Shown one piece after another: positions 12,027 through 48,771 of a DNA stretch of 64,000 nucleotides (within the stretch, counting starts at the first letter, position 1; every line of letters begins with the position of its first letter). The notes below the pieces were generated by a model. It saw nothing but the letters and a program-made list of their open reading frames with translations. It made no database searches and had not been told where the DNA came from. The translations under genes and the position numbers were made by a program. This stretch comes from Streptomyces humicola (GTDB lineage Bacteria > Actinomycetota > Actinomycetes > Streptomycetales > Streptomycetaceae), in the NCBI RefSeq assembly GCF_024436035.1, contig NZ_JANFNG010000016.1, forward strand, positions 62,001 through 126,000, written 5' to 3'.

Positions 12027-13493
12027 TCAGCCGGCGTGCGCCGGTGACGGTGAGGGTGTCGCGTCCGCGGGAACACGCCCCGCGAGCCGGTCGCGCCAGG
12101 CGGCGAGGACGGCCTCGTCGGTCGGCTTGGTGGCGAGGCTGACGATGACGTACGCGGCGAGCGAGGCCAGCAGCCCGTAGTACACGGGCTCGTTGGCGAG
12201 GATGCCCTTCCAGGCCATCGCGCCGATCACGGTGACGCCGCCGACCACGACCGAGGCGAGCGCTCCCGCGCCCGTGCCGCGCTTCCACAGCAGGCCGCCG
12301 AGGATGGGCACCAGCAGTCCGCCGACGAGCAGGTTGTACGCCACCGTCAGCGCCTCGACGACGTTGTCGATGCCGATGGCGAGGGCGATCACCGCAATGC
12401 CCATGACCAGGATGAACAGGCGGTTGCCGCGCACCTCGTCGTGGCCGTCCGCCGCTGTGGTGTGCTTCCTGCGCAGCCGCGCCCAGATGTCGTTGTTGGC
12501 GACGGTGGCACAGGCGATCAGTGCGCCGGAGGATGTCGACATCACCGCCGACAGCGCGGCGGCGAGCACCAGGCCGCGCACCCCGGCCGGCAGCGTGCCC
12601 TTGACGACGGTGGCGAACGCGTCGTCCGCGCCGGCCAGATGGGGGTAGAGGGTCTTGGCGGCGGTGCCGATCACAGCGCCCGCGAGCGCGTACAGCAGGC
12701 AGTACGTTCCGGCCACCGTGCCGCCGGCCCGCGCCACCTTGTCGCCGCGGGCGGTGAACACCCGCTGCCAGATGTCCTGTCCGATCAGCATCCCGAAGGT
12801 GTAGATCAGGACATAGGTGAAGATGGTCTGCCCGCCGATGCCGAGCGGCGCGAAGTACTCGTGCGGCAGCCGCGCCTCCATCCGCGTGAATCCGCCCGCC
12901 TTGACCACGGCGATCGGCAGCAGCAGCAACAGCACCCCGATCGTCTTGACGACGAACTGCACCATGTCGGTGAGGGTGATCGACCACATGCCGCCGAGCG
13001 TCGAGTACGCGACGACGATGGCACCGCCGAGCACGATCGCCGTGGTCCGGTCCATGCCGAAGAGCACGTCGAAGATGGTCGCGTAGGCGATGGTCGAGGT
13101 CACGGCGAGCATCAGCGTGTACGCCCACATCACGACGCCCGAGATCACTCCGGCCGTGCCGCCGTACCGCAGGTCGAGCATCTGGGCGACGGTGTAGACC
13201 TTCAGCCGCGCGATGCGTGCGGAGAACAAGACGCTGAGGGCGAGCAGCCCGAGGCCGATGGTGAAGACCATCCACGCCCCGGACAGGCCGTACTGGTAGC
13301 CGAGGCCGACACCGCCGATGGTGGAGGCGCCGCCGAGGACGATCGCCGCCATGGTGCCGGAGTACATCACGGGTCCGAGGCGCCGTCCGGCGACCAGGAA
13401 GTCGCTCTTGGACCTGGCGCGGCGCATGCCCCACCAGCCCATGCCGAGCATGCCCGCGAGATAGACGACGATCACCACGTAGTCCAGGGTCAT
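12027..13493 (-). CDS. Sodium:solute symporter (SSS family)
   Basis: A 488-residue membrane protein with about 13 hydrophobic segments, beginning [20 protein letters not shown]. Family hallmarks are the repeated small-residue helices [16 protein letters not shown] in TM2, [28 protein letters not shown] and [20 protein letters not shown]. The last contains the Ser/Thr-rich helix (TM8) associated with the Na2 site. Substrates of the family are sugars, amino acids, urea, polyamines and carboxylates. A GGAGG ribosome site lies 8 nt before the start. It is first in the operon with the ureohydrolase and ThDP enzyme, and so likely imports their substrate. Confidence 0.9.
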
Positions 13494-13616
13494 GCGCGTG
13501 CCTCCAGTTCAGGAGCTCAAGGAGCTAGGTCAGGGAGTCAAGGAGCGATCACTTCCGGGGGCCTCCGTCCGTTGAACCCTAGGTATCCGGTCGACGGCGG
13601 TGAAGTGTACGTTTTA

Positions 13617-13641
13617 TCCATCCCCTCGTATGCGAATGGAT
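13617..13641. promoter_or_regulatory. Possible operator in the symporter/pucR divergent region
   Basis: The arms ATCCAT (13617-13622) and ATGGAT (13636-13641) form an inverted repeat with a 13-bp spacer directly before the pucR start and in the only promoter-size gap of this divergent pair. PucR-type activators often bind such gaps. Only six bases per arm are matched, so this could be chance. Confidence 0.3.
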
Positions 13642-13650
13642 GGATTGCCC

Positions 13651-15210
13651 ATGTCCGATCTGGCTCCGCCGACGCCCGCGATCCCTTTGTCGTCATTGCT
13701 GGAGAGGGAGGACCTGGGCCTGCGGCAGGTGGCGGGGCCGGCGGCGGAGGCGGTCGCCCTGCACTGGGTGCACACCAGCGAGATGGCCGACCCGGTGCCC
13801 TATCTGCTCGGCGGTGAGCTGCTGCTGACCGCGGGCGTGCATGTTCCTTCCGCCGCTGGATCGGGCGCCTACCTCGACCACTATGTGCAGCGGACGGTCG
13901 AGGCGGGCGCGGCGGCGCTCGGTTTCGGGCTCGCGCCGGTGCACGACACCACGCCGCGTGCGCTCGCCGTGGCGTGCGAGCGGTACGGGCTGCCGCTGCT
14001 CGAAGTCCCGCCGCGCACCCCGTTCACGGCCGTCGCGCGCGCCGTGTGGCAGGCGATGGCGGAGGCGCGCCACCGAGAGCTGCGCCGGGTTGCCGATGCC
14101 CAGCAGGCACTGGCCTCGGCTGCGGCACGGTCCGAGCCTGTCCCTGCCGTGCTGCGGCAGCTCGCCCGTCACCTCGGCGCGCGGGCGGTGCTGCTCGACG
14201 CGGACGGGCACGAGGTGCATGCGGCGGGGCGGCGCCCATCGGGCGAGGTGGCCGATGCGATGCGGCAGCTCGCTGCGGTGGTACGGCCCTCGGGCGGCGC
14301 CGCGGCCCCGGTGTCCGCCGCCGACACCGTGGGGGAGACGCGTCTGGCCGCATACGCGCTGGCCGGGAACGCATCCGGCGCAGGCCTGGTGCTGGCCCTG
14401 GCCTCCGACCACCAGGACCCCGCGGACCATGCGATCGCCGGTGTCGGCTCGGTGCTGCTGTCGCTGCTCACCGGCGCATACCGGGGCGCGGGCGACGCCG
14501 AGCGCATCGGCGCACTGGTCCGGATGCTGCTCGGGGCGTCCGCGGAGGAGGTGGCGCCCCTGCTCACCCACGCAGGCAGCGCGGAGGCGCACTGGACGGT
14601 GGTGCACGCCCGGCGGGTGGGCGGCGGCAGACGCGGCGGGCACGCCCCCGATCCGCTCGCCGCGTCGGCTCTCGGTGCGGCGCTCGGCACCGCGCTGGTC
14701 GACATCTTCGACCCGTCCGCCGGTACCGTGCGTGCGCTGCTCCCCGGCGACCGTGAGCCGGGTGCCCGTCCCGGCTGGACGCTGGGCGCAAGCGCACCCG
14801 CCCCGGTGCGTGACCTCGCGGCTGCCGACGCCCAGGCTGCGGGCGCGCTGCGCCGTGCCGTCGCCGGCCGCAGCGCACTCGTGCGCCACCCGGCGCACGG
14901 AGCCGGTATCGATGCGCTGGTCGATCCGGGCACTGCGGCGGCGTGCGCCCGTGCGCGCCTCGCGCCGCTCGACGGCGCCCCCGCGCTCGTCGAGACGTTG
15001 CGCACCTGGCTTTCGCTGCACGGCAGTTGGGACCGTACCGCCGTCGCGCTCGGCGTGCACCGCAACACGGTCCGGCAGCGCATCGGCCGCGCCGCCGCCG
15101 TGCTCGATGCGGATCTCGACGATCCCGATGTGCGCGCCGACCTGTGGATCGCATTGCGTCACAAATCTCCGGGCGAACCCGGCGACCGGGTCACGCATTC
15201 GTCTCGATGA
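13651..15210 (+). CDS. PucR-family transcriptional regulator
   Basis: A 519-residue protein. The N-terminal PucR-like domain (about 8-130) contains LHWVHTSEMADPVPYLLGGE and LLLTAGVHV, with LGFGLAPVHDTTPRALAVAC further on. A GAF-like middle follows, and the C-terminus has the PucR helix-turn-helix: TLRTWLSLHGSWDRTAVALG then VHRNTVRQRIGRA (about 455-500). Members regulate purine, amine and amino-acid catabolism. I chose ATG 13651 (MSDLAPP) because similarity begins there; ATG 13636 and GTG 13600 are in-frame alternatives. It is transcribed away from the symporter-ureohydrolase-ThDP operon and is its most likely regulator. Confidence 0.88.
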   Translation: MSDLAPPTPAIPLSSLLEREDLGLRQVAGPAAEAVALHWVHTSEMADPVPYLLGGELLLTAGVHVPSAAGSGAYLDHYVQRTVEAGAAALGFGLAPVHDTTPRALAVACERYGLPLLEVPPRTPFTAVARAVWQAMAEARHRELRRVADAQQALASAAARSEPVPAVLRQLARHLGARAVLLDADGHEVHAAGRRPSGEVADAMRQLAAVVRPSGGAAAPVSAADTVGETRLAAYALAGNASGAGLVLALASDHQDPADHAIAGVGSVLLSLLTGAYRGAGDAERIGALVRMLLGASAEEVAPLLTHAGSAEAHWTVVHARRVGGGRRGGHAPDPLAASALGAALGTALVDIFDPSAGTVRALLPGDREPGARPGWTLGASAPAPVRDLAAADAQAAGALRRAVAGRSALVRHPAHGAGIDALVDPGTAAACARARLAPLDGAPALVETLRTWLSLHGSWDRTAVALGVHRNTVRQRIGRAAAVLDADLDDPDVRADLWIALRHKSPGEPGDRVTHSSR

Positions 15211-15254
15211 GCGACGCGTCGTGGATACGTCCTCGGACACGCGACAATGGCTGC

Positions 15255-16040
15255 ATGCCCATAGACCGAGCCCCGTCCCGCCAGGCCCTGATCGAACACC
15301 TCCTTCGCACCCGTATCGCCGGAGACGTCGCCACCACCCGCGAGAACAATCTCGACCACTACCGCGAGCTGGCGTCCGGCAACCGCTACTACTGGCTGGG
15401 GCTCGAACTCGGCGACCGGTGGACGGAGGAGGACGCGGTGCTGCAGGTGATGGCGCACCGCTGCGGTGTCGTCCCCGACCCCGGGCACCGCGCGGGCCAG
15501 GACACCATCGACCCGGAGCTGACCGTCGACGCGCTGGAGCGCCTCGCCATCCGGCTGCGCAAGGCGGCGGACGGCAGGCAGCGCGTGCTGCTCGCCACCG
15601 GCCACCCCGGCGGGCTCCTCGGCGTGCACCAGGCGACCGCGGCAGCGCTGCGGCAGGCCGGCTGCGAGATCGTCACCATCCCCGAGGGCCTGCACGCGGA
15701 CGAGGGCCGGCTGCTGCAGATGGGCGGGGTCGCCATGGTGCTGCGCGGTGCCGCCCTGGTGCACACCCACTCCCCCGAGCCGATGGCCGCGATCCTCGAC
15801 GCCATGGACGAGGCCGGCCGCCCGCTGCCCGACCTGGTGGTCGCCGACCACGGCTGGGCGGGATGCGCGGGGCAGCGGGGCATCGACGCCGTGGGCTACG
15901 CGGACTGCAACGACCCGGCGCTGTTCGTCGGGGAGGCCGAGGGCACGCTGGCCGTCACCGTTCCTCTCGACGACCACGTGGCGCCGCACTACTACGACCC
16001 GATGACGGCCTACCTGCTGGACGCGGCGGGCCTGCTGTGA
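15255..16040 (+). CDS. Phosphatase-annotated conserved actinobacterial protein
   Basis: A 261-residue protein starting MPIDRAPSRQ at ATG 15255. Conserved-looking segments are RTRIAGDVATTRENNLDHYR, LATGHPGGLLGVHQATA, TIPEGLHADEGR, LVVADHGWAGCAGQRGIDAV and GYADCNDPALFVGEAEGTL. Close homologues in Streptomyces are, as I recall, annotated simply as phosphatase; I see no classical DxDx[TV] or HxGxR phosphatase motif, so the label is weak. The His, Asp and Cys residues in the LVVADHGW and GYADCND blocks could form a metal or catalytic site. It follows pucR by 44 bp on the same strand and is convergent with tesB. Confidence 0.6.
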   Translation: MPIDRAPSRQALIEHLLRTRIAGDVATTRENNLDHYRELASGNRYYWLGLELGDRWTEEDAVLQVMAHRCGVVPDPGHRAGQDTIDPELTVDALERLAIRLRKAADGRQRVLLATGHPGGLLGVHQATAAALRQAGCEIVTIPEGLHADEGRLLQMGGVAMVLRGAALVHTHSPEPMAAILDAMDEAGRPLPDLVVADHGWAGCAGQRGIDAVGYADCNDPALFVGEAEGTLAVTVPLDDHVAPHYYDPMTAYLLDAAGLL

Positions 16041-38829: not shown

Positions 38830-39714
38830 TCAGCGGAAGGCATCCGGCGGCGGCACGGGAGACGCGGCGGCCGTCACGTCGGTGACGGGAGCCGCTCCCC
38901 CGGTGAAGTCGGCAAGTTCCCTGCCGTGTTCAAGGCGTCCGGGGTGCGGGTCGCCGGCGATCCGGCGGGTCAGCTCGGCGAACGGGAGGGCCCGGCCGGA
39001 GGCGACCAGCATCGCGTTGCCGAAGCGCCGGCCGCGCAGCACCGCAGGATCGGCGGCCAGACAGCTCTCCTCGAAGCAGGAGCGCACGGTCGCCACCTGC
39101 GACCGGAGGAACGCAAGTCCTCCGCCGTCGGTGAGATTGGCCGCATATACCCCGTCGGGCCGCAGCACCCGCCGCACATCGGCGAGGAACTCCACGGACG
39201 TCAGATGCGCAGGCGTGCGCGCGCCGTGGAAGACGTCGGCGATCACGAGATCCGCCCAGTTCTCGTGGAGCTTGGCCAGCCCTTCGCGGGCGTCCCCGCC
39301 ACGCACGCGGATCCGCCATGTGCGGTCCAACGGCAGTTCGCGGCGGACGAGTTCGACGAGCGCCGTGTCGATCTCGATCACCTGTTGGGTGGAGCGCGGA
39401 CGGGTGGCGGCGACGTACCGCGGGAGGGTGAGCGCACCCCCGCCTAGGTGGACGACGTGCAGCGGCATGCCCTGCGCCGCCATCAGATCGATCATATGGC
39501 CGAGCCTGCGCTGGTAGGCGAAGTCGAGGCGTTCGGGGTCGTCGAGGTCGACATGCGACTGTGGGGCGCCGTCGATCAGCAGCGACCAGGCGCGCGGCCG
39601 CTCCCGGTCCGGTACGAGCTCGGCGGCGCCGCCGCCGACGAAGGCGCGCACCGGCTCCCGGCCCTGCCGGGCCGCCGCCCGTCCCCTGCCTGTCCTGCCC
39701 GTTCCGCCTGCCAC
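38830..39714 (-). CDS. Spermidine synthase-like SAM-dependent enzyme
   Basis: A 294-residue protein from GTG 39714. The Rossmann-fold aminopropyltransferase/methyltransferase core shows LVPDRERPRAWSLLIDGAPQ, SHVDLDDPERLDFAYQRRL, VHLGGGALTLPRYVAATRPR (cofactor loop), VIEIDTALVELVRRELPLD, GDAREGLAKL and DLVIADVFHGARTPAHLTS. In this actinobacterial subgroup polyamine substrate residues are only partly kept, so true spermidine synthesis is not certain. The C-terminus ends DAFR with a Pro/Ala-rich tail. The next gene upstream on the same strand stops 26 bp away. Confidence 0.85.
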   Translation of the reverse strand: MAGGTGRTGRGRAAARQGREPVRAFVGGGAAELVPDRERPRAWSLLIDGAPQSHVDLDDPERLDFAYQRRLGHMIDLMAAQGMPLHVVHLGGGALTLPRYVAATRPRSTQQVIEIDTALVELVRRELPLDRTWRIRVRGGDAREGLAKLHENWADLVIADVFHGARTPAHLTSVEFLADVRRVLRPDGVYAANLTDGGGLAFLRSQVATVRSCFEESCLAADPAVLRGRRFGNAMLVASGRALPFAELTRRIAGDPHPGRLEHGRELADFTGGAAPVTDVTAAASPVPPPDAFR

Positions 39715-39739: not shown

Positions 39740-40168
39740 TCAGAGCGCGTCGGCGGCCTCGATGGTGCGCGCCGCCTCGCCGAGCGCCTGGCGCAGCAGC
39801 GCGGGATCGGTGACCGGGTGGCTGCTCTCCGGCGGTACGAGCCAGCCCGTGCCCGCGACCGGTGGATCGCCGGCGAGCCTGCGCCCGCCGCCGTCGGTCT
39901 CCGTGCACGCGCTGCCCGGCAGGTCCCAGCCGTCGGCGGTGCCGGGCGGGACCAGGAAACCGAGAGTGTCGCCCGAGGAGTCGTGCAGCACCGGCCCGAC
40001 GCCCGTGCGCAGCCGCAGAATGTCAACGGCTTCGAGGCCCTGCCGCGACGGCACGGTGACCAGATCCCAGTCGGGGGCCGCCACCGCCGACACCGCGTCC
40101 GAGGCGGGCGCGCCCGCCGCCTTCATCTTCGACCCGGATGATCTGTGCGCCCCTGAAGTCTCCAACAA
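39740..40168 (-). CDS. Conserved hypothetical protein, TTG start
   Basis: A 142-residue protein without signal peptide or membrane segment. Segments: DWDLVTVPSRQGLEAVDILR, GVGPVLHDSSGDTLGFLVPP, GTADGWDLPGSACTE and GTGWLVPPESSHPVTDPALL. The pattern of repeated LVPP blocks recalls conserved Streptomyces proteins of unknown function. The start TTG (40168, or the next TTG at 40165) is supported by GAGGAGGT 5-8 nt upstream; the first ATG (40126) has no ribosome site. Probably cotranscribed with the spermidine-synthase-like gene. Confidence 0.7.
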   Translation of the reverse strand: MLETSGAHRSSGSKMKAAGAPASDAVSAVAAPDWDLVTVPSRQGLEAVDILRLRTGVGPVLHDSSGDTLGFLVPPGTADGWDLPGSACTETDGGGRRLAGDPPVAGTGWLVPPESSHPVTDPALLRQALGEAARTIEAADAL

Positions 40169-40419: not shown

Positions 40420-41769
40420 ATGGCACCCTCACCGCCGGCGCCCAACACAGCCTTCCGACGGCTGCGGGGCGACCTGTCGCCCGGCGAGTTCGCCGCGGCG
40501 GTACGGAGGGCGGCCCGCGAGATCGGTGAGCGGGTGAGCTGCGACGCGCGCTACATCGGCCGCGTCGAGTCGGGCGAGATCCGGTGCCCCAACTACGCGT
40601 ACGAGCGAGTCTTCAAGCACATGTTCCCCGGCTGCACGCTCACGGACATGGGGTTCGCACCGCGCGAGGCGGTACGGGGTCGCAGGCTGCACGCGGATGC
40701 GGGGCCCGTGGTGCCCATGGTGGATGACGGCACCTTCAGCACTGACAGCAACAACGAGGAGAGCGACGTGCTGCGTCGCGCATTCATGACCAGCGGCCCG
40801 GCTGCCGCACTGGCGGCAGCGCTGCCGGCGCCGATCGGCCCGGCACCGGCCGTACCGCGCCGGATCGGCGGCCGCGAGGCCCACTCGGTCGAGGAGGCGG
40901 TGCGACAGATCCGGCTGCTCGACGACAGGCACGGCGCGGAAGGGCTCTTCCAGCGGGCCGGCCACTCGCTGCGCAGCGCCTATGCGCTGCTCGACCAGGG
41001 GATGTACAGCCAGGCCGTCGCCGACAGATTGCACGCCGGATCGGGTGAACTCGCCATCTCCGTGGGATGGTTGGCGCACGACTCCGGGCGCCATGCCGAT
41101 GCCCGTTCGTACTATGCGGAAGCGCTGGCCACCGCCCGTATGTCCGGCGACCCGGCGCTGGAGGCGCACGCCTTCTGCAACACCGCGTTCCTCGCGCGCG
41201 ACGCGGGTCGCCCGCGCGAGGCGGTGCGAGCCGCACAGGCCGCCCAGCGCGCGGCCAGAGCGCTCGGATCGTCGCGCCTGCTGTCGCTGCTCGCCCTGCG
41301 TGAGGCGGGGGGCTGGGCCGGGCTCGGCGACCGGGCGGCGTGCGAGCGGGCGCTGCTGCGCGCCGCGCGGTTGTACGGCAAGGGGCCGTCCGACGCCGAT
41401 CCGGAGTGGATGACCTTCTACGGCGAGGCCGAGTTGGAGGGACTCGAGGCGCAGTGCTGGTCGCGGCTGGGCGAGTACCGTCGCGCCGCGGTGCACGCAC
41501 GGCGGGGCGTAGCCCTGCAGGATCCTCACTTCACGCGCAATATCGCGCTCTACAGTGCGGAGTTGGCGGGGGATCTCGCAGCGGGCGGTGAACCCGACGA
41601 GGCGGCGGAGGCGGGCCGGCGAGTGCTCGACCTGCTGGGCGAGCACGTCAGGTCCTCGCGCATCCGCACGATGCTGGACGCGGCGGCGACGACGCTCGGC
41701 CCGCACCGCAGGCGCGGCGCGGTGGCCGAGTTCCTGGCCCGGCATGCACACTCCAGGCGATCGGCGTAA
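40420..41769 (+). CDS. TPR-containing transcriptional regulator (NsdA-like family)
   Basis: A 449-residue protein. The N-terminal XRE-like part (about 15-75) has SPGEFAAAVRRAAREIGERV, SCDARYIGRVESGEIRCPNY and YERVFKHMFPGCTLTDMGF. The remaining 300 residues are helical repeats of TPR type: AGSGELAISVGWLAHDSGRH, ADARSYYAEALATARMSGDP and RRAAVHARRGVALQDPHF. This domain order is that of NsdA/NsdB-type streptomycete regulators, which hold back sporulation and antibiotic production; which member it matches is not clear. Its own promoter lies in 40169-40419, which contains no other gene. Confidence 0.8.
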   Translation: MAPSPPAPNTAFRRLRGDLSPGEFAAAVRRAAREIGERVSCDARYIGRVESGEIRCPNYAYERVFKHMFPGCTLTDMGFAPREAVRGRRLHADAGPVVPMVDDGTFSTDSNNEESDVLRRAFMTSGPAAALAAALPAPIGPAPAVPRRIGGREAHSVEEAVRQIRLLDDRHGAEGLFQRAGHSLRSAYALLDQGMYSQAVADRLHAGSGELAISVGWLAHDSGRHADARSYYAEALATARMSGDPALEAHAFCNTAFLARDAGRPREAVRAAQAAQRAARALGSSRLLSLLALREAGGWAGLGDRAACERALLRAARLYGKGPSDADPEWMTFYGEAELEGLEAQCWSRLGEYRRAAVHARRGVALQDPHFTRNIALYSAELAGDLAAGGEPDEAAEAGRRVLDLLGEHVRSSRIRTMLDAAATTLGPHRRRGAVAEFLARHAHSRRSA

Positions 41770-41841
41770 CGCTGCAACGCTTCACCGCGCGGCGGGCTCG
41801 CTTCGACGGGGAGCGAAGCGATGCCGCCCTACCGTGGGCGC

Positions 41842-42660
41842 ATGAGCGACTTCGCACCTGACGACGGGTTCCGCAGGTTCCAGGAGTTCCGGGAGCTGCA
41901 CCATCGTGAGCAGCCGTTGCTGCTGCCCAACGCATGGGACCACGCGTCCGCCGCGGCGCTCGCGGCACGCGGGTTCCGGGCGATCGGAACGACGAGCCTC
42001 GGGGTCGCCGCGGCCGCCGGCATGGTGGACGGGGCCGGGGCGACCCGGGCGCAGACCGTGGCGCTCGCACTCGGGCTGGCCAGGCTCGATGCGCTGATCA
42101 CCGTCGACATCGAGGGCGGGTTCGGCGAGGACCCCGGTGACGTCGCGGCGCTCGCGGCCGAGTTGGCCGACGCCGGGATCGTCGGGGTCAACATCGAGGA
42201 CGGCCGGGCCGACGGCTCGCTCGCCCCGGTCGCACGGCAGCGCGAGGTGATTGCCGCCGTCAAGGAGCGCGTGCCGCACCTGTTCGTCAACGCCAGAACG
42301 GACACCCACTGGCTGCGTGAGGCACCGTCGCTCGACGTGACGCTCCGCCGCGTCGAGGCCTACCAACAGGAGGGCGCCGACGGCGTCTTCGTGCCGGGCT
42401 TGGTCGACGACGACTCCGTCCGCAGCGTGGTGGAGGCGGTCGGCGTACCGCTGAACGTCCTGTTCGCGCCCGGTCGCGTCAGCTACGACCGGCTCGCGGA
42501 GCTGGGCGTGCGGCGCATCTCCACCGGCTCGTTGCTCTTCCGCGCGGCCCTGGACAGCGCCGTCGAGACGGCCTGGGCCGTCGCGCACCCGGATGCACCG
42601 GTCCGCGAGGTGCCCTCGTACGGGGAGGTGCAGGCGCTGGCGGAGCGGTTCCGCGGGTGA
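41842..42660 (+). CDS. Isocitrate lyase/PEP mutase family protein
   Basis: A 272-residue TIM-barrel enzyme: LLLPNAWDHASAAALAARGF, RAIGTTSLGVAAAAGMVDGA, ALITVDIEGGFGEDPGDVAA (metal Asp and Glu), GIVGVNIEDGRADGSLAPV and HLFVNARTDTHWLRE. The catalytic Cys of isocitrate lyase (KKCGH) is absent, so it is not isocitrate lyase; it belongs to the PEP mutase/oxaloacetase-like group that makes or breaks C-C or C-P bonds in 2-oxo acids. Convergent with the TetR gene, 9 bp apart. Confidence 0.88.
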   Translation: MSDFAPDDGFRRFQEFRELHHREQPLLLPNAWDHASAAALAARGFRAIGTTSLGVAAAAGMVDGAGATRAQTVALALGLARLDALITVDIEGGFGEDPGDVAALAAELADAGIVGVNIEDGRADGSLAPVARQREVIAAVKERVPHLFVNARTDTHWLREAPSLDVTLRRVEAYQQEGADGVFVPGLVDDDSVRSVVEAVGVPLNVLFAPGRVSYDRLAELGVRRISTGSLLFRAALDSAVETAWAVAHPDAPVREVPSYGEVQALAERFRG

Positions 42661-42669
42661 GCCGCCCGC

Positions 42670-43416
42670 TCACCCCGCACCCAGCAGGCCGTCGAGCAGC
42701 GCGTCGAGGCCGTGCTCGTACTGGCGCAGGCCGTCCTGCGCCGACGCCAGCTCCGGCGCGAGGTCGACGAGGTGAGGGAAGCGGTCCGCGGGCAGCCCGG
42801 CGAACCGTGTCCGCAGCCGCTCGCCGCCGTTCTGGTGGGCGAGCCCGCGACGGCGTCCGCTCGCGGTCCACAGCGCGGCGCCCACCGTGTACTGCATCAG
42901 CGCGGTCTCGGCGCGGGCCGCCGCCGAGCGGTCCATCCCCGATCGCAGCAGCAGGCCGAGCAGACGGTCGACGACGGCCGTGCCCTCGTCGCCGCGCACG
43001 GGCCCCCGGGTGAGGAGGTGGAGCACGGAGGGGTGGTCGGCGAGCAGTCGGTAGACGCTCCGGCACAGCGCACGCACGGCGCGCCGCGGTTCGGCGGGTC
43101 CGGGGTGCTCGGGGTGTCCGGGGTGTCCGGGGTGTCCGGCGTGTTCGGCGTGTTCGGCGGCGGGGAGGGCGATCTCGGCGAGCAGCCGTTCGCGCACGGC
43201 GTCGATGATCTCGTCCTTGCCGGTGAAGTGGGTGTAGACGGCCATGGTGCCGACGCCGAGGCGTTCGGCGAGGGCGCGCATGGTGAAGGCGTCGGGCCCT
43301 TCGTGGTCGAGGAGGGAGACGGCGGCATCGAGGACGCGCTCACGGTTGAGGGTGTTGCGAGGCGTGCGGCGGCGGGGAGTTGGACGTGTGGGGGGATGTA
43401 CGGGCGGCTTCGTCAT
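42670..43416 (-). CDS. TetR/AcrR-family regulator
   Basis: A 248-residue regulator. The DNA-binding domain (about 22-68) reads LNRERVLDAAVSLLDHEGPD, AFTMRALAERLGVGTMAVYT and HFTGKDEIIDAV. A His/Pro/Gly/Glu-rich insert (about 85-105, EHAGHPGHPGHPEHPGP) separates it from the C-terminal helices, which match the TetR_C class with DHPSVLHLLTRGPV. The basic Pro/Thr/Arg N-terminus is typical of actinobacterial members. ATG 43416 was chosen. It is divergent from the Dna2-like operon, with 137 bp between them, and could regulate it. Confidence 0.85.
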   Translation of the reverse strand: MTKPPVHPPTRPTPRRRTPRNTLNRERVLDAAVSLLDHEGPDAFTMRALAERLGVGTMAVYTHFTGKDEIIDAVRERLLAEIALPAAEHAEHAGHPGHPGHPEHPGPAEPRRAVRALCRSVYRLLADHPSVLHLLTRGPVRGDEGTAVVDRLLGLLLRSGMDRSAAARAETALMQYTVGAALWTASGRRRGLAHQNGGERLRTRFAGLPADRFPHLVDLAPELASAQDGLRQYEHGLDALLDGLLGAG

Positions 43417-43553: not shown

Positions 43554-44690
43554 GTGACCGAGAGCACCACCCTGCGGGAGCGGCTGGCCGCGTTGCGCGG
43601 ACCGGCCGTTCCACCACGAGCGCTCGATGCCCGGGCGCTCGCCGCGCTGGCCGCCAATCCCGGGTGCGGACGGCGGGCGCTGCTCGACGCGGCCGGGGTG
43701 GACAAGGCCGCGGTGGCACGGGTGTTGGGGGCGCCCGCGCCATTCGGGCAGTCGCAGTTCGCTTTCGCGCGCGGGCACGCCTTCGAGGCGCGGGTGAAGG
43801 CCGACGGCTGCCAGGAGCTGCTGCGGCTGCTGGGCGCGACGAACAGCGAAGCGGATGCAGTGGCGGCGCTGCCCGACCTGAGCGCACCGGACCCGCAGGC
43901 GCGCGCCGCCCGTACCCGGCTCGCGCTCGAACAGCTGTCACCTGCGGGCGGCTGGGCGCTGCTCGACCACCCGATGCTCGTGCTCGACGTCGCCGGGTCG
44001 CCCGCATATCTGGAGCCCGACGCGATCGCCGTGCGCCCGGACGGGTCGTGGACGGTGATCGAGGTCAAGTCCTTCCCCGTCCTCGACGGGAGCGCCGATC
44101 CGGTGAAGGTGGGCGCGGCGGCGCGGCAAGCCGCCGTCTACGTGCTGGCGCTGGAACGGATCCGGCCGGGCGCGGCCCGGCCGGAGGCGCTGCTGGTCTG
44201 CCCGAAGGACTTCTCCAATCTGCCCACCGCCGAGCTGCTCGACGTACGCAAGCAGCTGTCGGTCACCCGGCGGCAGTTGGCCCGGCTCACCCGGGTCGAG
44301 GAGCTCCTCGCAGGCCTGCCGGAGGGCACCACGTTCGATCTGCGGCTCGCGGACGACGACAGACAGCAACATGAGCCGCTGGCGCGGCGGGCCACCCGGC
44401 CGGGCGCCGAACTCGCCGCGGCCGTCGACTCGGTGCCGTCCGCCTACGCACCGGAATGCCTCGCGACCTGTGAACTCGCCTTCCACTGCAGGGAACGGGC
44501 GCGTGCCATGGGGTCGGTCGAATCGCTGGGGCGCTCGCTGCGCGGCGAGCTCGGTGCGCTGGCCACCGTCGAGCAGGTGCTCGCGGCAGCCTCCGCGGAC
44601 GGCGGCGCCTCGGACGATCCGGCGGTGGCCGCGCTGCGCAGGGCCGCGGCGCTGCGCTCCCAGGCACTGCAGGAGGCGGCATGTCGCTGA
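43554..44690 (+). CDS. PD-(D/E)XK nuclease of Cas4/Dna2/AddB type with Fe-S cluster
   Basis: A 378-residue protein from GTG 43554. Signs of a RecB-family nuclease with an iron-sulfur cluster: Cys38 in NPGCGRRALL, Gly74-His75 in ARGHAFEARV, Asp156 in YLEPDAIAV, Glu170 and Lys172 in TVIEVKSFP, Gln192 and Tyr196 in RQAAVYVLAL, and three C-terminal cysteines 302, 306 and 312 in ECLATCELAFHC. The one-plus-three Cys layout is that of Dna2, Cas4 and AddB. First of three overlapping genes ending in an SF1 helicase, so a DNA end-processing or ssDNA nuclease subunit is inferred. No Cas gene or CRISPR is nearby. Confidence 0.82.
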   Translation: MTESTTLRERLAALRGPAVPPRALDARALAALAANPGCGRRALLDAAGVDKAAVARVLGAPAPFGQSQFAFARGHAFEARVKADGCQELLRLLGATNSEADAVAALPDLSAPDPQARAARTRLALEQLSPAGGWALLDHPMLVLDVAGSPAYLEPDAIAVRPDGSWTVIEVKSFPVLDGSADPVKVGAAARQAAVYVLALERIRPGAARPEALLVCPKDFSNLPTAELLDVRKQLSVTRRQLARLTRVEELLAGLPEGTTFDLRLADDDRQQHEPLARRATRPGAELAAAVDSVPSAYAPECLATCELAFHCRERARAMGSVESLGRSLRGELGALATVEQVLAAASADGGASDDPAVAALRRAAALRSQALQEAACR

Positions 44691-46219
44691 TGGTGACTCT
44701 CGCGCGAGCGCAGGCCGCGGCCGAGGGGCGCGCCCAGCCGCTCGCAACGGTCGGACACCGCCATCTGTCCCAACGCCCCTTGGTCCTGGTGATGTTGACG
44801 ACCGCGGGCGAGGTGGGCGCTCCGCTGGGCGCGCTGGTCGGGACGGACCGGGACGCGCCGCGGCTGCTCGTCGTGCCGCAGCCGCGCGACCGGCAGCTGC
44901 GCTTCGCCTTCCTCGCGGAGCTGGCCGATGCCGTGCTGCCGTACATCGAGTCGTACGAGGACGCGGTCGAGACCGAACCTGCGACGCGGGCCAGGGAGGA
45001 GTCCGAGATCTGCGCGGACGCGCCGCAGCTGATCGTGCCGAACACCACGGCTATCGAGTACGTACGGCTGCTGGGCCGCTCCACGCGCTTTCGCCGCACC
45101 GCCGAGGACGACCCTGAAGAACCTTACCCGGCGCCCGAGCGGGTCCCGCTGCTCGGGCGCTGGCTGACGCATTACGGCGAGCGGGCGCGCACCCCGGGCA
45201 GTGCGCTGCTCATGGCCATGACCGACCTGCTCAGCCGCCACTGGGCGACCGGGCAGAGCGCCCTGGAGGACCAGCATCTGGGGGCGCTGCTCGCCTGGAT
45301 CGATCCGCCGACGGGGACGAACGGCGCGGCCGCCGCGCGTCTTGCGGAGGTGGCGCGCGACGAGCACGGTCTGCTGCTCAGCCCGCCCGCAGGGCCGCCC
45401 ACCGATCCAGTCTTCGACAACCGCGCCCTCGCCCCGGCGATGGCGCGATTCGACGCGGCGAGGACGGCGGGTGCGGACCTGGGCCCCGCCGAGCGGGCGA
45501 TACGCGACCTCGTGGCCGGCCAGCTACGTCCGACGTGGGACAACGTCTGGCGCGGCATCGATCTGCTGCGCACGTTGCCGCCGGCGTCCCGGGCCGGCGA
45601 CCGCTGGAAGCGCGACCGCTGGTCGTTCACCGGTCACCGGGACCGGGTGCGAGCGGGCGAGCCGCCGCAGCCGAAGCGCGACGACGCGGTCACGGCCGCG
45701 CAGAAGCTCGCCGGGCGCGAGGCGGCGCAAGCCCGTCTCGAGGCGCAGGAGGCGCTGGACGACCCACTGGTGATGGCGGGACGGCGGCTGGCCGGCGAGG
45801 CGTTCGCGGGTGAGGTCGTCGAGGTCGAGATGGCGTACTCGGACGGCAGACGCCCGATGCCGCGGCCGCTGGTGAGCGTCGTCACGGGGGACCGGCCGCG
45901 CCTGGAGCCGGGCGCCAAGGTGTACCGAGTGCCGCCCGTGGCCGCCGTACCGTCCGCCCAGACCGCCGAGTTCGTCGCCGAGCGCGACGGGGCGCTGCTG
46001 CTCAGGCTGGTCAGCGGCATGGGCCGCGGCAAGGTGCCGGAGCCCGGCTCGGTGCCGGGCCAGGGCGACTTCGTCTGCTGGACGCTCTTCGAACACGCGC
46101 CCCACGGCGGCCCCGAGCTGCCGGACCCGCAGGACATCCCGTGGACCCACGGCGGCCCGCCCGGCTCCGCCCCGGCCGCCGCCGCGCCCGATCCCGTGAC
46201 CGCGGAGGACTTCCTTTGA
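44681..46219 (+). CDS. Conserved hypothetical subunit between nuclease and helicase
   Basis: A 512-residue protein that overlaps the nuclease gene by 10 bp and the helicase gene by 4 bp. The first 330 residues are helical, without known motif (ELADAVLPYIESYEDAVETE, MAMTDLLSRHWATGQSALED). Residues about 330-360 are a charged coiled-coil-like stretch (AQKLAGREAAQARLEAQEAL). The last part, about 370-490, is beta-rich: GEVVEVEMAYSDGRRP, RPRLEPGAKVYRV and TAEFVAERDGALLLRLVSGM. This could be the beta-barrel (1B-like) that precedes the helicase core in Dna2/Upf1 proteins. The role is inferred from context only. An alternative start is ATG 44690. Confidence 0.65.
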   Translation: MSLMVTLARAQAAAEGRAQPLATVGHRHLSQRPLVLVMLTTAGEVGAPLGALVGTDRDAPRLLVVPQPRDRQLRFAFLAELADAVLPYIESYEDAVETEPATRAREESEICADAPQLIVPNTTAIEYVRLLGRSTRFRRTAEDDPEEPYPAPERVPLLGRWLTHYGERARTPGSALLMAMTDLLSRHWATGQSALEDQHLGALLAWIDPPTGTNGAAAARLAEVARDEHGLLLSPPAGPPTDPVFDNRALAPAMARFDAARTAGADLGPAERAIRDLVAGQLRPTWDNVWRGIDLLRTLPPASRAGDRWKRDRWSFTGHRDRVRAGEPPQPKRDDAVTAAQKLAGREAAQARLEAQEALDDPLVMAGRRLAGEAFAGEVVEVEMAYSDGRRPMPRPLVSVVTGDRPRLEPGAKVYRVPPVAAVPSAQTAEFVAERDGALLLRLVSGMGRGKVPEPGSVPGQGDFVCWTLFEHAPHGGPELPDPQDIPWTHGGPPGSAPAAAAPDPVTAEDFL

Positions 46220-47562
46220 GTGAGGCAGGTGAGGATTTCGACGCCGCTGCCGCCGCCGAGGCCGCCACCGAGGCGATCCTGCGCGATGCCCGGGACAGCC
46301 CGCACCGCGGCGTCGTCGTGGATTCGCCGCCGGGCGCGGGCAAGTCGACGCTGGTGGTGCGCGCGGCACGCCGACTCGCCGCCGACGGCGAGTCGTTGAT
46401 GATCGTCGCGCAGACCAACGCCCAGGTGGACGATCTCGTCGACCGGCTCGCGACCGCGGAGCCCGGCCTGCCCATCGGCCGGTTGCACGGCTCGGACGCC
46501 CCGCCCGACCCGGTGCTCGACCGGCACGCCTCGGTGCTGAAGTCCACGAAGGCGGCCGAACTGCGCGGGCAGCAGGTGGTGATCGCGACCGCCGCGAAGT
46601 GGGCGTACGTCAAGGGCAAGGACATCGAGCCGTGGCGCCACGCGATCGTCGACGAGGCCTACCAGATGCGCTCCGACGCGTTGCTGCGCGTGGCCGGGCT
46701 CTTCGAGCGCGCACTGTTCGTGGGCGACCCCGGCCAGTTGGACCCGTTCAGCGTGGTGGGCGCGGAGCAGTGGGCGGGGCTTTCGTACGACCCGTCGGCG
46801 AGCGCGGTGGTGACGCTGCTGGCGCACAATCCGCACCTGCCGCAGCACCGGCTGCCGGTCTCGTGGCGGCTGCCTGCCTCGGCTGCGCCGCTGATCTCCG
46901 ACGCCTTCTACCCATACACCCCGTTCCGCAGCGGCACGGGACCGGGCGAGCGGCGGCTGTCGTTCGCGCTCGCGTCGGACGGCGAGGGTCCGGACCGGGT
47001 GATCGACGAGGCGGCGGCGAGCGGCTGGGGGCTGCTCGAACTGCCGGCGCGGCTCACGCCGCGTACCGATCCGGAGGCGGTCGCGGCGGTGGCCCGCGTC
47101 GTGCGGCGGCTGCTGGACCGGGGCGGGGCCACGACCGGCGAGCGTGCGGCGGAGCCGGCGCCGCTCACCGCGGACCGCATTGCCGTCGGCACAGCCCACC
47201 GCGATCAGGCAGCCGTGGTACGGGCGGAGCTCGGCGCGCTCGGGGTGGCGGGGGTCACGGTCGACACCGCGAACCGGCTGCAGGGCCGGGAGTTCGACGT
47301 CACCGTTGTGCTGCACCCCCTGTCGGGGCGCCCCGACGCGACGGCGTTCCATCTGGAGACCGGCAGGCTGTGCGTGCTGGCGTCCCGGCACCGCCACGCA
47401 TGCGTCGTGGTGTGCCGGGCAGGCGTTGCCGAGCTGCTGGACGAGCATCCGTCGACCGAACCGGTGCAGCTCGGTGTGACGGTGAAGTTCCCGGACGGCT
47501 GGGAGGCGAACCACGCGGTACTCGCCCGGCTCCGCGAGCACCGCATCGCCTGGACCCCCTGA
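46216..47562 (+). CDS. SF1 (Dna2/Upf1-like) helicase
   Basis: A 448-residue ATPase starting with TTG 46216, which overlaps the previous stop (TTGA). Helicase motifs in order: I VVVDSPPGAGKSTLVVRA, Ia MIVAQTNAQVDDLVDRL, II AIVDEAYQMRSDALL, III LFVGDPGQLDPF, IV-like PVSWRLPASAAPLI, V VDTANRLQGREFDVTVVLHP and VI CVLASRHRHACVVV. DEAY, GDPGQL and the Arg finger in SRHRH fit superfamily 1B (Dna2, Upf1, IGHMBP2). It lacks attached nuclease and barrel domains, which the two upstream genes seem to supply. It should act as DNA translocase or helicase of a three-subunit complex. Confidence 0.85.
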   Translation: MSEAGEDFDAAAAAEAATEAILRDARDSPHRGVVVDSPPGAGKSTLVVRAARRLAADGESLMIVAQTNAQVDDLVDRLATAEPGLPIGRLHGSDAPPDPVLDRHASVLKSTKAAELRGQQVVIATAAKWAYVKGKDIEPWRHAIVDEAYQMRSDALLRVAGLFERALFVGDPGQLDPFSVVGAEQWAGLSYDPSASAVVTLLAHNPHLPQHRLPVSWRLPASAAPLISDAFYPYTPFRSGTGPGERRLSFALASDGEGPDRVIDEAAASGWGLLELPARLTPRTDPEAVAAVARVVRRLLDRGGATTGERAAEPAPLTADRIAVGTAHRDQAAVVRAELGALGVAGVTVDTANRLQGREFDVTVVLHPLSGRPDATAFHLETGRLCVLASRHRHACVVVCRAGVAELLDEHPSTEPVQLGVTVKFPDGWEANHAVLARLREHRIAWTP

Positions 47563-47628: not shown

Positions 47629-47994
47629 ATGTCCGAGCCGAAGCCGGCTCACCAGACGCCGCAGGAAGGACGACGCAGGATGCGCCCGGCACCGCTGCTG
47701 TTCGAGCCCGAAGCGGCCGCGTCCGACCCCGAGCACTTCTTCGACCTGGAGTCGATGGAGGACCCGCAGGAGCTGCTCGAACGGTCGACGGAGCTGGCGC
47801 TGGCGTTCCAGGCCGCCGCCGACCGGGCCACCGAGTTCCAGGCGATGGCTGCGGCACAGCTCGCCGACCCCAAGCGCTTCGACCGGATGTCGGTGGCAGG
47901 GATCGCGCAGCGGGCGGAGTGGAGCGAGGACTATGCCAAGAAGATGATCGAGTTCGGCGCCGGTCTCCTCAAGCAGGGTGGTCCGCGGGACTGA
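47629..47994 (+). CDS. Small conserved hypothetical protein
   Basis: A 121-residue acidic helical protein with GGAG before ATG 47629. Segments: RMRPAPLLFEPEAAASDPEH, FFDLESMEDPQELLERSTEL, ALAFQAAADRATEFQAMAAA and VAGIAQRAEWSEDYAKKMIE. Residues 60-90 are probably a coiled coil. No catalytic motif. It follows the helicase gene by 66 bp on the same strand and may share its transcript. Function unknown. Confidence 0.75.
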   Translation: MSEPKPAHQTPQEGRRRMRPAPLLFEPEAAASDPEHFFDLESMEDPQELLERSTELALAFQAAADRATEFQAMAAAQLADPKRFDRMSVAGIAQRAEWSEDYAKKMIEFGAGLLKQGGPRD

Positions 47995-48141: not shown

Positions 48142-48771
48142 ATGAGCGAATCGACGTGGGACAGCTCGTACGGACGGCACGCGCGCGGCATCTGGGGCAT
48201 CGACCGGCACGGCGAATGGCGTGACGACTCCCCCGGGCCCGCCGCCCCGGAGTCCGAGTACGTCACCGTGGCGGGCGCCGACTGGCTCGCCTCGGCGAGC
48301 TCCTTCCCCCGCAGCGTGCAGGCGCTCTGGTCGGCCAGGCCGACCTCGCCGAGCGTGCTGCCGTGCGGCACGGCCTTCGACGTGGTCAACCTCCCCGCGC
48401 TCTTCGGCCGCCGCGTTCTCGACCGGTTATGGGCGGCGGGACCGGGCTGCGGCCCGGTCGCCTCGCACCGCGGACGGATGCTGCTCTTCGCCGCCCCCGG
48501 CACCGCCGACCGGCTGCCGGCACTGCTCGCCTGGGAGGAGTGGGGGGCAAGCGTGCCGCCGCTGCTCTTCCACGGGCTGGGCGACGCCGTGACCGTGCCG
48601 CCTCTGGTGCCGTCCGAGCGGGCCGCGGACGGGGCACGCGCCCGCTGGCTGGTGGCTCCGGACGCCCGGCACCCCTGGCTGCCGGGCGCCGATGTGCTGT
48701 TGTGGGCATGTCTGCGTGCCTCGCGGGCGGAGGCGGTCACGGAGGCGCTGGTCGCGGCCGATCCGACGTGA
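48142..48771 (+). CDS. Prim-pol-like (bifunctional DNA primase/polymerase-annotated) protein
   Basis: A 209-residue protein from ATG 48142. Conserved-looking blocks are VAGADWLASASSFPRSVQAL, WSARPTSPSVLPCGTAFDVV, NLPALFGRRVLDRLWAAGPG, HRGRMLLFAAPGTADRLPAL and RWLVAPDARHPWLPGADVLL. Similar short Streptomyces proteins are, as I recall, annotated as bifunctional DNA primase/polymerase; the metal-binding residues of an active prim-pol are not evident, so catalytic activity is doubtful. It lies between the small helical protein gene and tRNA-Lys. Confidence 0.6.
   Translation: MSESTWDSSYGRHARGIWGIDRHGEWRDDSPGPAAPESEYVTVAGADWLASASSFPRSVQALWSARPTSPSVLPCGTAFDVVNLPALFGRRVLDRLWAAGPGCGPVASHRGRMLLFAAPGTADRLPALLAWEEWGASVPPLLFHGLGDAVTVPPLVPSERAADGARARWLVAPDARHPWLPGADVLLWACLRASRAEAVTEALVAADPT

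Follow-up and report, generated by a model that had tools for sequence, protein, structure and literature searches.

A probable Dna2-like helicase-nuclease divided over three genes of Streptomyces humicola, with related cassettes in defense islands

Introduction

Among the known systems that most resemble the one studied here are single-chain proteins in which a nuclease part precedes a helicase, including the TM0106 family, which we take to be TIGR03491 and whose nuclease part is, judging by the family name, presumably RecB-like. In Dna2, the nuclease is followed by a barrel carried on a two-helix stalk and then by the helicase, according to the excerpted text of PMC4716839 (the sources cited here by PMC number are all used in excerpt). 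The DNA2-like protein Bad of Geobacillus stearothermophilus is described as a monomeric single chain that joins an iron-staple RecB nuclease with four cysteines to a superfamily 1B (SF1B) helicase, and purified Bad is a 5′ to 3′ motor and a single-stranded DNA (ssDNA) endonuclease (PMC7430649). Cas4-like nucleases and UvrD helicases have been described as separate neighboring genes, mostly in Clostridiales, within one predicted operon (PMC5704561). Here, we analyze a window of 64,000 nucleotides (the whole stretch of DNA under study) from Streptomyces humicola (assembly GCF_024436035.1, contig NZ_JANFNG010000016.1, forward-strand positions 62,001-126,000), in which three co-directional genes at 43554-47562, hereafter the trio, encode a putative nuclease (gene 1), a middle protein (gene 2), and a helicase (gene 3). 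Using gene content and order, conservation, residue patterns, distribution, and neighborhoods, together with model-predicted folds for genes 1 and 2, we conclude that the trio is probably a single ATP-driven DNA-processing machine spread over three polypeptides, with a core chromosomal copy that would serve genome maintenance and accessory copies in defense islands.

Results and Discussion

Layout and predicted proteins of the trio

Translation of the window gives three genes on the same strand, with adjacent overlaps of 10 bp and 4 bp, just as the preliminary description of this locus had it:

43554..44690, + strand: gene 1, nuclease; GTG start, 378 aa
44681..46219, + strand: gene 2, middle protein; ATG start, 512 aa
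44771..45613, + strand: N-terminal part of gene 2 (residues 31-311), RNase-H/3′-5′ exonuclease-like fold in the model
45677..46141, + strand: C-terminal part of gene 2 (residues 333-487), stalk helices and 1B beta-barrel in the model
46216..47562, + strand: gene 3, helicase; TTG start, 448 aa

The genome of S. humicola (7.07 Mb, 78 contigs) contains a single match each for the nuclease, the middle gene, and the helicase.

Gene 1 is, on the basis of a predicted fold, a PD-(D/E)XK nuclease of the RecB/Cas4 type, and its four cysteines are candidate iron-sulfur (Fe-S) ligands. We aligned the window protein with its relatives from 80 loci (81 rows in total), these being the best 80 of 390 stretches encoding a gene 1 relative, and all 80 from Streptomycetaceae. 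The four cysteines C38, C302, C306, and C312 occupy the positions originally reported and are identical in all 81 rows. The nuclease residues, placed at D156, E170-x-K172, and Q192-x3-Y196, are likewise invariant (81/81), but the histidine of the “G-H” motif included in the originally proposed set is not conserved, with position 75 being N in 69 of 81 rows. The cysteines at the end of the window protein are spaced C-x3-C-x5-C, differing in this from Dna2, since C-x2-C is the usual spacing of the second and third cysteines in Dna2, AddB, and Cas4. The AlphaFold2 model (pLDDT 88.3, pTM 0.84, 37 sequences) matches Cas4 7mi4_A at Z 10.4 over 195 residues and Dna2 5eaw_A (residues 28-420) at Z 6.4 over 209 residues, with further fold matches to MGME1, RecE, and AddB (Z 7.0). 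No family in Pfam, NCBIfam, PHROG, or PADLOC is matched over its cut-off, the Pfam family PDDEXK_1 reaching 18.9 bits against a cut-off of 22, and the Protein Data Bank (PDB) sequence matches, which are to designed proteins over a short helical stretch, were put down to chance. ARAGORN also calls a tRNA-Pro at 43692-43778, within gene 1 and on the same strand, which is probably a false positive.

Gene 3 is, judging from its sequence, the RecA core of an SF1B (Upf1/Dna2-type) helicase without a 1B barrel of its own. The motifs PPGAGKS (P-loop, residues 38-44), DEAY, GDPGQL, and SRHRH are all in place, Pfam AAA_11 and AAA_12 are matched over their cut-offs, and the best PDB sequence match is Dna2 (E 2.4e-6, residues 36-186 to 648-803), followed by IGHMBP2 (E 1.2e-5), so that the SF1B assignment made for this gene at the outset stands. 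Since the protein starts about 37 residues ahead of the P-loop, it has no room for a barrel. Several other matches were rejected as the identity of gene 3 because they are generic helicase matches, i.e., PHROG 25411 (function unknown; E 6.5e-16), NCBIfam PLuB_AAA (2.2e-11, far under cut-off), the IGHMBP2 family TIGR00376 (6.5e-8, under cut-off), and, in PADLOC-DB 2.0.0, nine short alignments with the helicase portions of larger models, the best being MkoA (1.1e-8). The trio as a whole matches no known anti-phage system in PADLOC-DB 2.0.0, with genes 1 and 2 giving no match there. A search of 50,697 phage records with the helicase gave no match at E <= 1e-5; PHROG 25411 is nonetheless a phage-encoded relative.

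Gene 2 is, according to its AlphaFold2 model (pLDDT 88.1, pTM 0.86, 35 sequences), an RNase-H-like fold followed by the stalk and 1B barrel of Upf1/Dna2-type helicases. It matches no family over cut-off in Pfam, NCBIfam, PHROG, or PADLOC, and its weak Pfam matches, e.g., Caa3_CtaG at 16.6 bits against a cut-off of 27.7, were put down to chance. Residues 31 to ~311 of the model resemble the 3′-5′ exonuclease domains of family B polymerases, seven of which align at Z 8.4-9.3 (rmsd 3.6-3.9 over 180-186 residues), with one more at Z 7.4. This domain is probably not catalytic, because V37 and L39 would take the places of the two exo I acidic residues, judging from the offset of the aligned ranges. 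The RNase-H-like fold is seen by structure alone, there being no match to Pfam RNase_H_2 at E <= 1 among 35 members of the gene 2 family. Residues 333-487 align with residues 5-159 of IGHMBP2 (4b3f) at Z 9.3 over 133 residues (rmsd 4.5), a segment that precedes the P-loop region of that helicase (gene 3 aligns to IGHMBP2 208-257), and six strands lie inside residues 374-468. Other fold matches to this C-terminal part are Senataxin (Z 8.0), Sen1 (Z 7.8), and Dna2 462-569 (Z 7.1-7.2), in a list where barrels of unrelated enzymes score Z 7.0-7.7. The fold match, stalk helices included, agrees with the suggestion that the beta-rich end of gene 2 is the barrel that precedes the helicase core. The gene order had also been likened to the domain order of Dna2, and nuclease, barrel, and helicase do occur in that order, but most of gene 2 is something else, beginning with the predicted RNase-H-like domain.

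As Upf1 and Senataxin act on RNA, and as the fold scores of the gene 2 barrel with IGHMBP2, Senataxin, and Sen1 equal or exceed those with Dna2, we considered an RNA-directed helicase-nuclease, e.g., one that clears R-loops or phage RNA. We judge this very improbable, since the characterized nucleases of the RecB/Cas4 fold act on DNA, Dna2 is the top sequence match to gene 3, and the companions of the accessory copies described below include SbcCD and Wadjet, which act on DNA.

The core chromosomal locus

Of 297 Streptomycetaceae genomes, 291 have the middle gene, the exceptions being G424, G504, G544, G607, G612, and G644; across the phylum, it was found in 11 of 296 genomes, all of these inside the class Actinomycetes. 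The helicase was found in 21 of 148 genomes of the class, i.e., 11 Streptomycetaceae and 10 others. Among the 80 core loci, 79 contain gene 2 and 75 contain gene 3, and the five without gene 3 end at a contig edge. A survey of neighborhoods, as proposed with the first description, showed the three genes to be adjacent in 13 of 14 regions examined, including two core loci and two second copies; in one of the adjacent regions (L117), the helicase is read as two pieces, and the remaining region, from genome G095, is taken up below. A rapidly built tree of the helicases places all 15 core rows in a single clade (SH-aLRT 100) and requires no fewer than two origins or losses for the accessory copies.

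The genes around the trio are conserved in part. The first five genes listed below flank the core locus, and each of them is present in 66-72 of 80 core loci:

38830-39714: core flanking gene
39740-40126: core flanking gene
40420-41769: core flanking gene
47629-47994: core flanking gene
48142-48771: core flanking gene
41821-42660: upstream gene, in 0 of 80 core loci
42670-43416: upstream gene directly before the trio, resembling TetR on visual inspection; present in 14 of 80 core loci

The window copy is thus the core gene set at a partly conserved locus. Its near-universality, its largely conserved flanks, and the lack of any PADLOC match at E <= 1e-10 among 10 of its neighbors point to a housekeeping role.

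An accessory four-gene form in defense islands

A second form of the trio is preceded by an extra gene of 281-291 aa, which we call g0 (L121:2318-3163 and L122:3377-4222). This gene occurs in 22 of 297 Streptomycetaceae genomes, which together with two plasmids give an accessory set of 24 loci. The order g0-nuclease-middle-helicase is found in 23 of these 24 loci (the helicase being interrupted in L226), the remaining one (L231) containing g0 alone. For example, in two Streptomyces plasmids, a 281-aa g0 and the trio are followed by genes annotated as, or resembling, Wadjet JetA-D. Three copies of g0 were scanned and gave no PADLOC and no Pfam match, and a search of the S. humicola genome for g0 gave no match, an empty result that the search tool flagged as uncertain. 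The core copy may have lost g0, given that this gene also stands ahead of the trio in Nonomuraea (L126) and in 3 of 10 loci from other families (L107, L108, and L110).

Among the genes found beside the accessory copies are those of Wadjet I, II, and III, CRISPR I-E, PprPDDEXK and PprDinG of pPIWI-RE, Hma, a type III methylase, PD-Lambda-1, and SbcCD (a label taken from plasmid annotation). Using 24 labeled defense or SbcCD proteins as queries, we found a defense gene within the same 14-20-kb stretch in 18 of 24 accessory loci (21 of 24 with SbcC/D) and in none of the 80 core loci (975 kb) or the 18 control stretches (331 kb), a count that is partly circular because the 24 queries come from the accessory loci themselves. 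The controls were taken at hand-chosen places from 18 of 20 genomes, two being only 5-6 kb long, and were searched with the 24 proteins alone. Three loci contain no labeled gene (L228, L229, and L231), and three contain SbcC/D alone (L143, L215, and L230). Searches against PADLOC at E <= 1e-10 matched 27 of 34 accessory neighbors, which were picked by size and nearness and whose matches include SbcC and generic helicase or SMC ones, compared to 0 of 10 neighbors of the trio in the window.

These neighborhoods, and the occurrence of Cas4-like nucleases with UvrD helicases in defense contexts (as excerpted from PMC5704561), would also fit a core copy that is itself an anti-phage or anti-plasmid defense system fixed in Streptomycetaceae, with the four-gene copies being its mobile versions. 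We consider this unlikely, in that the core copy is almost universal, has mostly conserved neighbors and no detected defense gene, forms a single clade, and lacks g0 in all 80 core loci, whereas defense systems are usually patchy in their distribution.

The residues of the accessory proteins are conserved unevenly. The four nuclease cysteines are kept in 23 of 23 accessory copies, and the helicases have an invariant P-loop (G40-K43), D146-E147, Y149, G170-D-P, Q174, and R218 across 23 copies, with variation limited to S44 and A327, both T in L143, and to position 328, which is H or R (the L226 sequence lacks the region of the last motifs). At least one of D156, E170, and K172 is, however, altered in 8 of 23 accessory nucleases (L142, L213, L214, L217, L219, L221, L226, and L228), so that the constancy expected of these residues across orthologues holds for the core copies, and for the cysteines throughout, but not for the catalytic set of the accessory copies. 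These substitutions suggest that nuclease activity is not obligatory in the wider family. An altered nuclease is found in 6 of 6 loci with PprPDDEXK and in 2 of 17 others (Fisher p 0.0003), an association that may reflect a single event because the altered nucleases sit together in a single region of the tree. Such a nuclease may be retained for a structural or DNA-binding role, with cleavage left to another enzyme, but given how related the loci are, this is at most a lead.

Three accessory loci in different genomes (L142, L213, and L214) carry close four-gene cassettes, with helicase end branches of 0.006-0.02, and lie beside different systems (Hma versus PprDinG and a type III methylase), which suggests recent shuffling between defense systems. 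In L213, a protein of ~1060 aa is encoded at 12726-15935, after the helicase and before the type III methylase. It belongs to a cluster of four genes (c11; e.g., L225:4329-7505), the one scanned gave no PADLOC match at E <= 1e-10, and it is a possible further component.

As a tentative extension, we propose that actinobacteria have a family of modular DNA motors made up of helicases whose barrel is supplied in trans. One lineage would have become the near-universal chromosomal enzyme of Streptomycetaceae, and the four-gene lineages may be an undescribed part of defense islands that plugs the motor into Wadjet I-III, CRISPR I-E, pPIWI-RE, and Hma, with its own nuclease perhaps switched off where a partner brings a PD-(D/E)XK nuclease.

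One machine or separate proteins

The trio could alternatively comprise three independent operon-mates, with a Cas4-like nuclease and a Upf1-like helicase that each act alone and a middle protein unrelated to either. Of 49 plasmid records with a helicase relative, six were examined, and in three (L123, L124, and L125, from Rhodococcus, Mycobacterium, and Euzebya) a helicase of 30-34% identity follows a gene of 387-448 aa, directly in two plasmids and with a transposase gene between them in the Rhodococcus plasmid. A profile of the three upstream genes matches gene 2 by hhalign (probability 91.5, E 8.6e-7, 210 columns) and matches neither gene 1 nor gene 3, and no nuclease homologue was found in these three loci at E <= 1e-8. 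We also observed an open reading frame of 65-70 aa ahead of the pair in 3 of 3 plasmids. Since the gene 2 homologue accompanies the helicase with no nuclease found alongside, the middle protein and the motor appear to be the constant pair, and from these sequences they look indispensable, with the nuclease optional. The plasmid pairs also count in favor of independent proteins, as do the lack of a gene fusion and the separated helicase described below. That reading is nevertheless quite unlikely in our view, as the gene order persists from family to family, in core as well as accessory copies, the genes overlap, and a helicase core without a barrel adjoins a protein predicted to end in one.

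Several observations weigh against a single machine of the kind we propose. First, we found no true fusion of any two trio genes in the loci examined; an open frame joining genes 2 and 3 in L008 was rejected as an assembly artifact (draft contig, run of N, frameshift). Second, in one genome (G095, C1:3.13-3.17 Mb; L109 and L140-L141), the helicase lies ~36 kb from the nuclease-middle pair, both members of which are strong profile matches. Third, the two genes immediately upstream of the trio in the window are, as listed above, not conserved. Fourth, Foldseek returned nothing for the gene 2 model at E <= 0.001 and sequence searches of gene 2 against solved structures gave no significant match, so that its fold assignment hangs on values of Z ~9 from a single aligner. 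Finally, compared to the TM0106 family, gene 1 gives a weak signal (P 0.014 and 0.01, reversed control 0.45) and gene 2 shows no sequence similarity (hhalign P 0.16 and 0.31, against 0.46 for the reversed control). The stretch beside the helicase in G095 contains what we take, by eye, to be an IS3 transposase, an Mrr-type restriction enzyme, and DarT/DarG lookalikes.

The overlaps themselves recur: among 74 three-gene Streptomycetaceae loci, 51 have the one of 10 bp and 53 the one of 4 bp (start codons set by script; L008 excluded). They had been taken to imply a fixed stoichiometry, which does not follow, because intergenic gaps and overlaps differ between loci and because of the separated helicase in G095.

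Weighing this evidence, we continue to favor a single three-part machine, and we infer its assembly into one complex, its polarity, its substrate, and its biological role as follows. Gene 1 would be an Fe-S-stapled nuclease of the RecB/Cas4 type; gene 2 would be a scaffold, in which the stalk and 1B barrel come after an RNase-H-like domain that is probably inactive; and gene 3 would be the RecA motor, to which gene 2 supplies the 1B barrel in trans. The motor is expected to run 5′ to 3′ on ssDNA and feed the strand to the nuclease, and the trio would trim DNA at ends, flaps, or fork structures. The window's chromosomal copy would be a vertically inherited genome-maintenance enzyme of Streptomycetaceae, and related copies with the extra gene would have been recruited into defense islands, where the motor is kept and the nuclease may be dispensable. 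The presence of such relatives in these islands suggests a part in dealing with DNA that is damaged or foreign. If this is correct, nearly every Streptomyces has an uncharacterized Dna2-like enzyme in three separable pieces, in which nuclease, barrel, and motor can be added or omitted freely, something that single-chain enzymes do not permit. The defense-island relatives, with invariant cysteines and P-loop and an often altered nuclease, would then point to an undescribed defense-associated cassette and name its possible partners.

Comparison with known systems

Among the matches listed in the open-access literature (which covered few subscription papers and no bioRxiv), no title or abstract opening dealt with this trio, and no report described this helicase-nuclease class with its 1B barrel on a separate subunit. 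A word search of the main text of an actinobacterial defense survey (PMC10482375) found neither “helicase” nor “Dna2”. The preliminary description knew of no characterized bacterial complex of this form, a statement to be qualified in that Bad, a bacterial Dna2-like enzyme in a single chain, has been characterized (PMC7430649, excerpt).

When set beside Dna2 and Bad, the trio has the four cysteines, the catalytic D, E, and K, and an Upf1-type SF1B core; a stalk and barrel stand between nuclease and helicase by predicted fold; and nuclease and helicase do not share one polypeptide. The trio is therefore like Bad in combining a four-cysteine RecB-type nuclease with an SF1B helicase and unlike it in consisting of three chains, and the excerpt mentions no RNase-H-like domain for Bad (PMC7430649). 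It is like Dna2 in that nuclease, stalk and barrel, and helicase domains 1A/2A come in the same order, whereas Dna2 is a single chain with an N-terminal OB domain and, in the excerpted text, no described RNase-H-like domain (PMC4716839). The Cas4-like/UvrD pair similarly places the nuclease and an SF1 helicase on separate genes, but its helicase is a 3′-5′ one, and no separate barrel or RNase-H-like subunit is described for it in the excerpt (PMC5704561).

The TM0106 type is closer than Dna2, because the N-terminal RNase-H-like fold predicted for gene 2 is missing from Dna2. TIGR03491 occurs in 30 of 118 genomes of the class and in 0 of the 8 Streptomycetaceae among them, and in 18 of 20 TIGR03491 loci the helicase is in the same long open frame, these 18 spanning 1131-1726 aa. 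Four single-chain TM0106 proteins have Pfam RNase_H_2 followed by AAA_11/AAA_12, and their N-terminal part has no Pfam nuclease match at E <= 0.001. The trio proteins have no NCBIfam match to TIGR03491 at E up to 1, and the S. humicola genome has none at E <= 0.01. Gene 3 is homologous to the TM0106 helicase by profile comparison (E 1.5e-28), and when gene 1 is aligned with TM0106, QxxxY, the cysteine cluster, and the tail stay in register. Because the similarity of gene 1 is weak and that of gene 2 absent, the helicase alone is securely tied to TM0106 by sequence. In architecture, the trio follows the TM0106 type in having a predicted RNase-H-like fold before the helicase and a nuclease part in front, and it differs in using three chains in place of one. 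We consider “split TM0106-type enzyme” to be the best description of this architecture, as distinct from one of proven descent.

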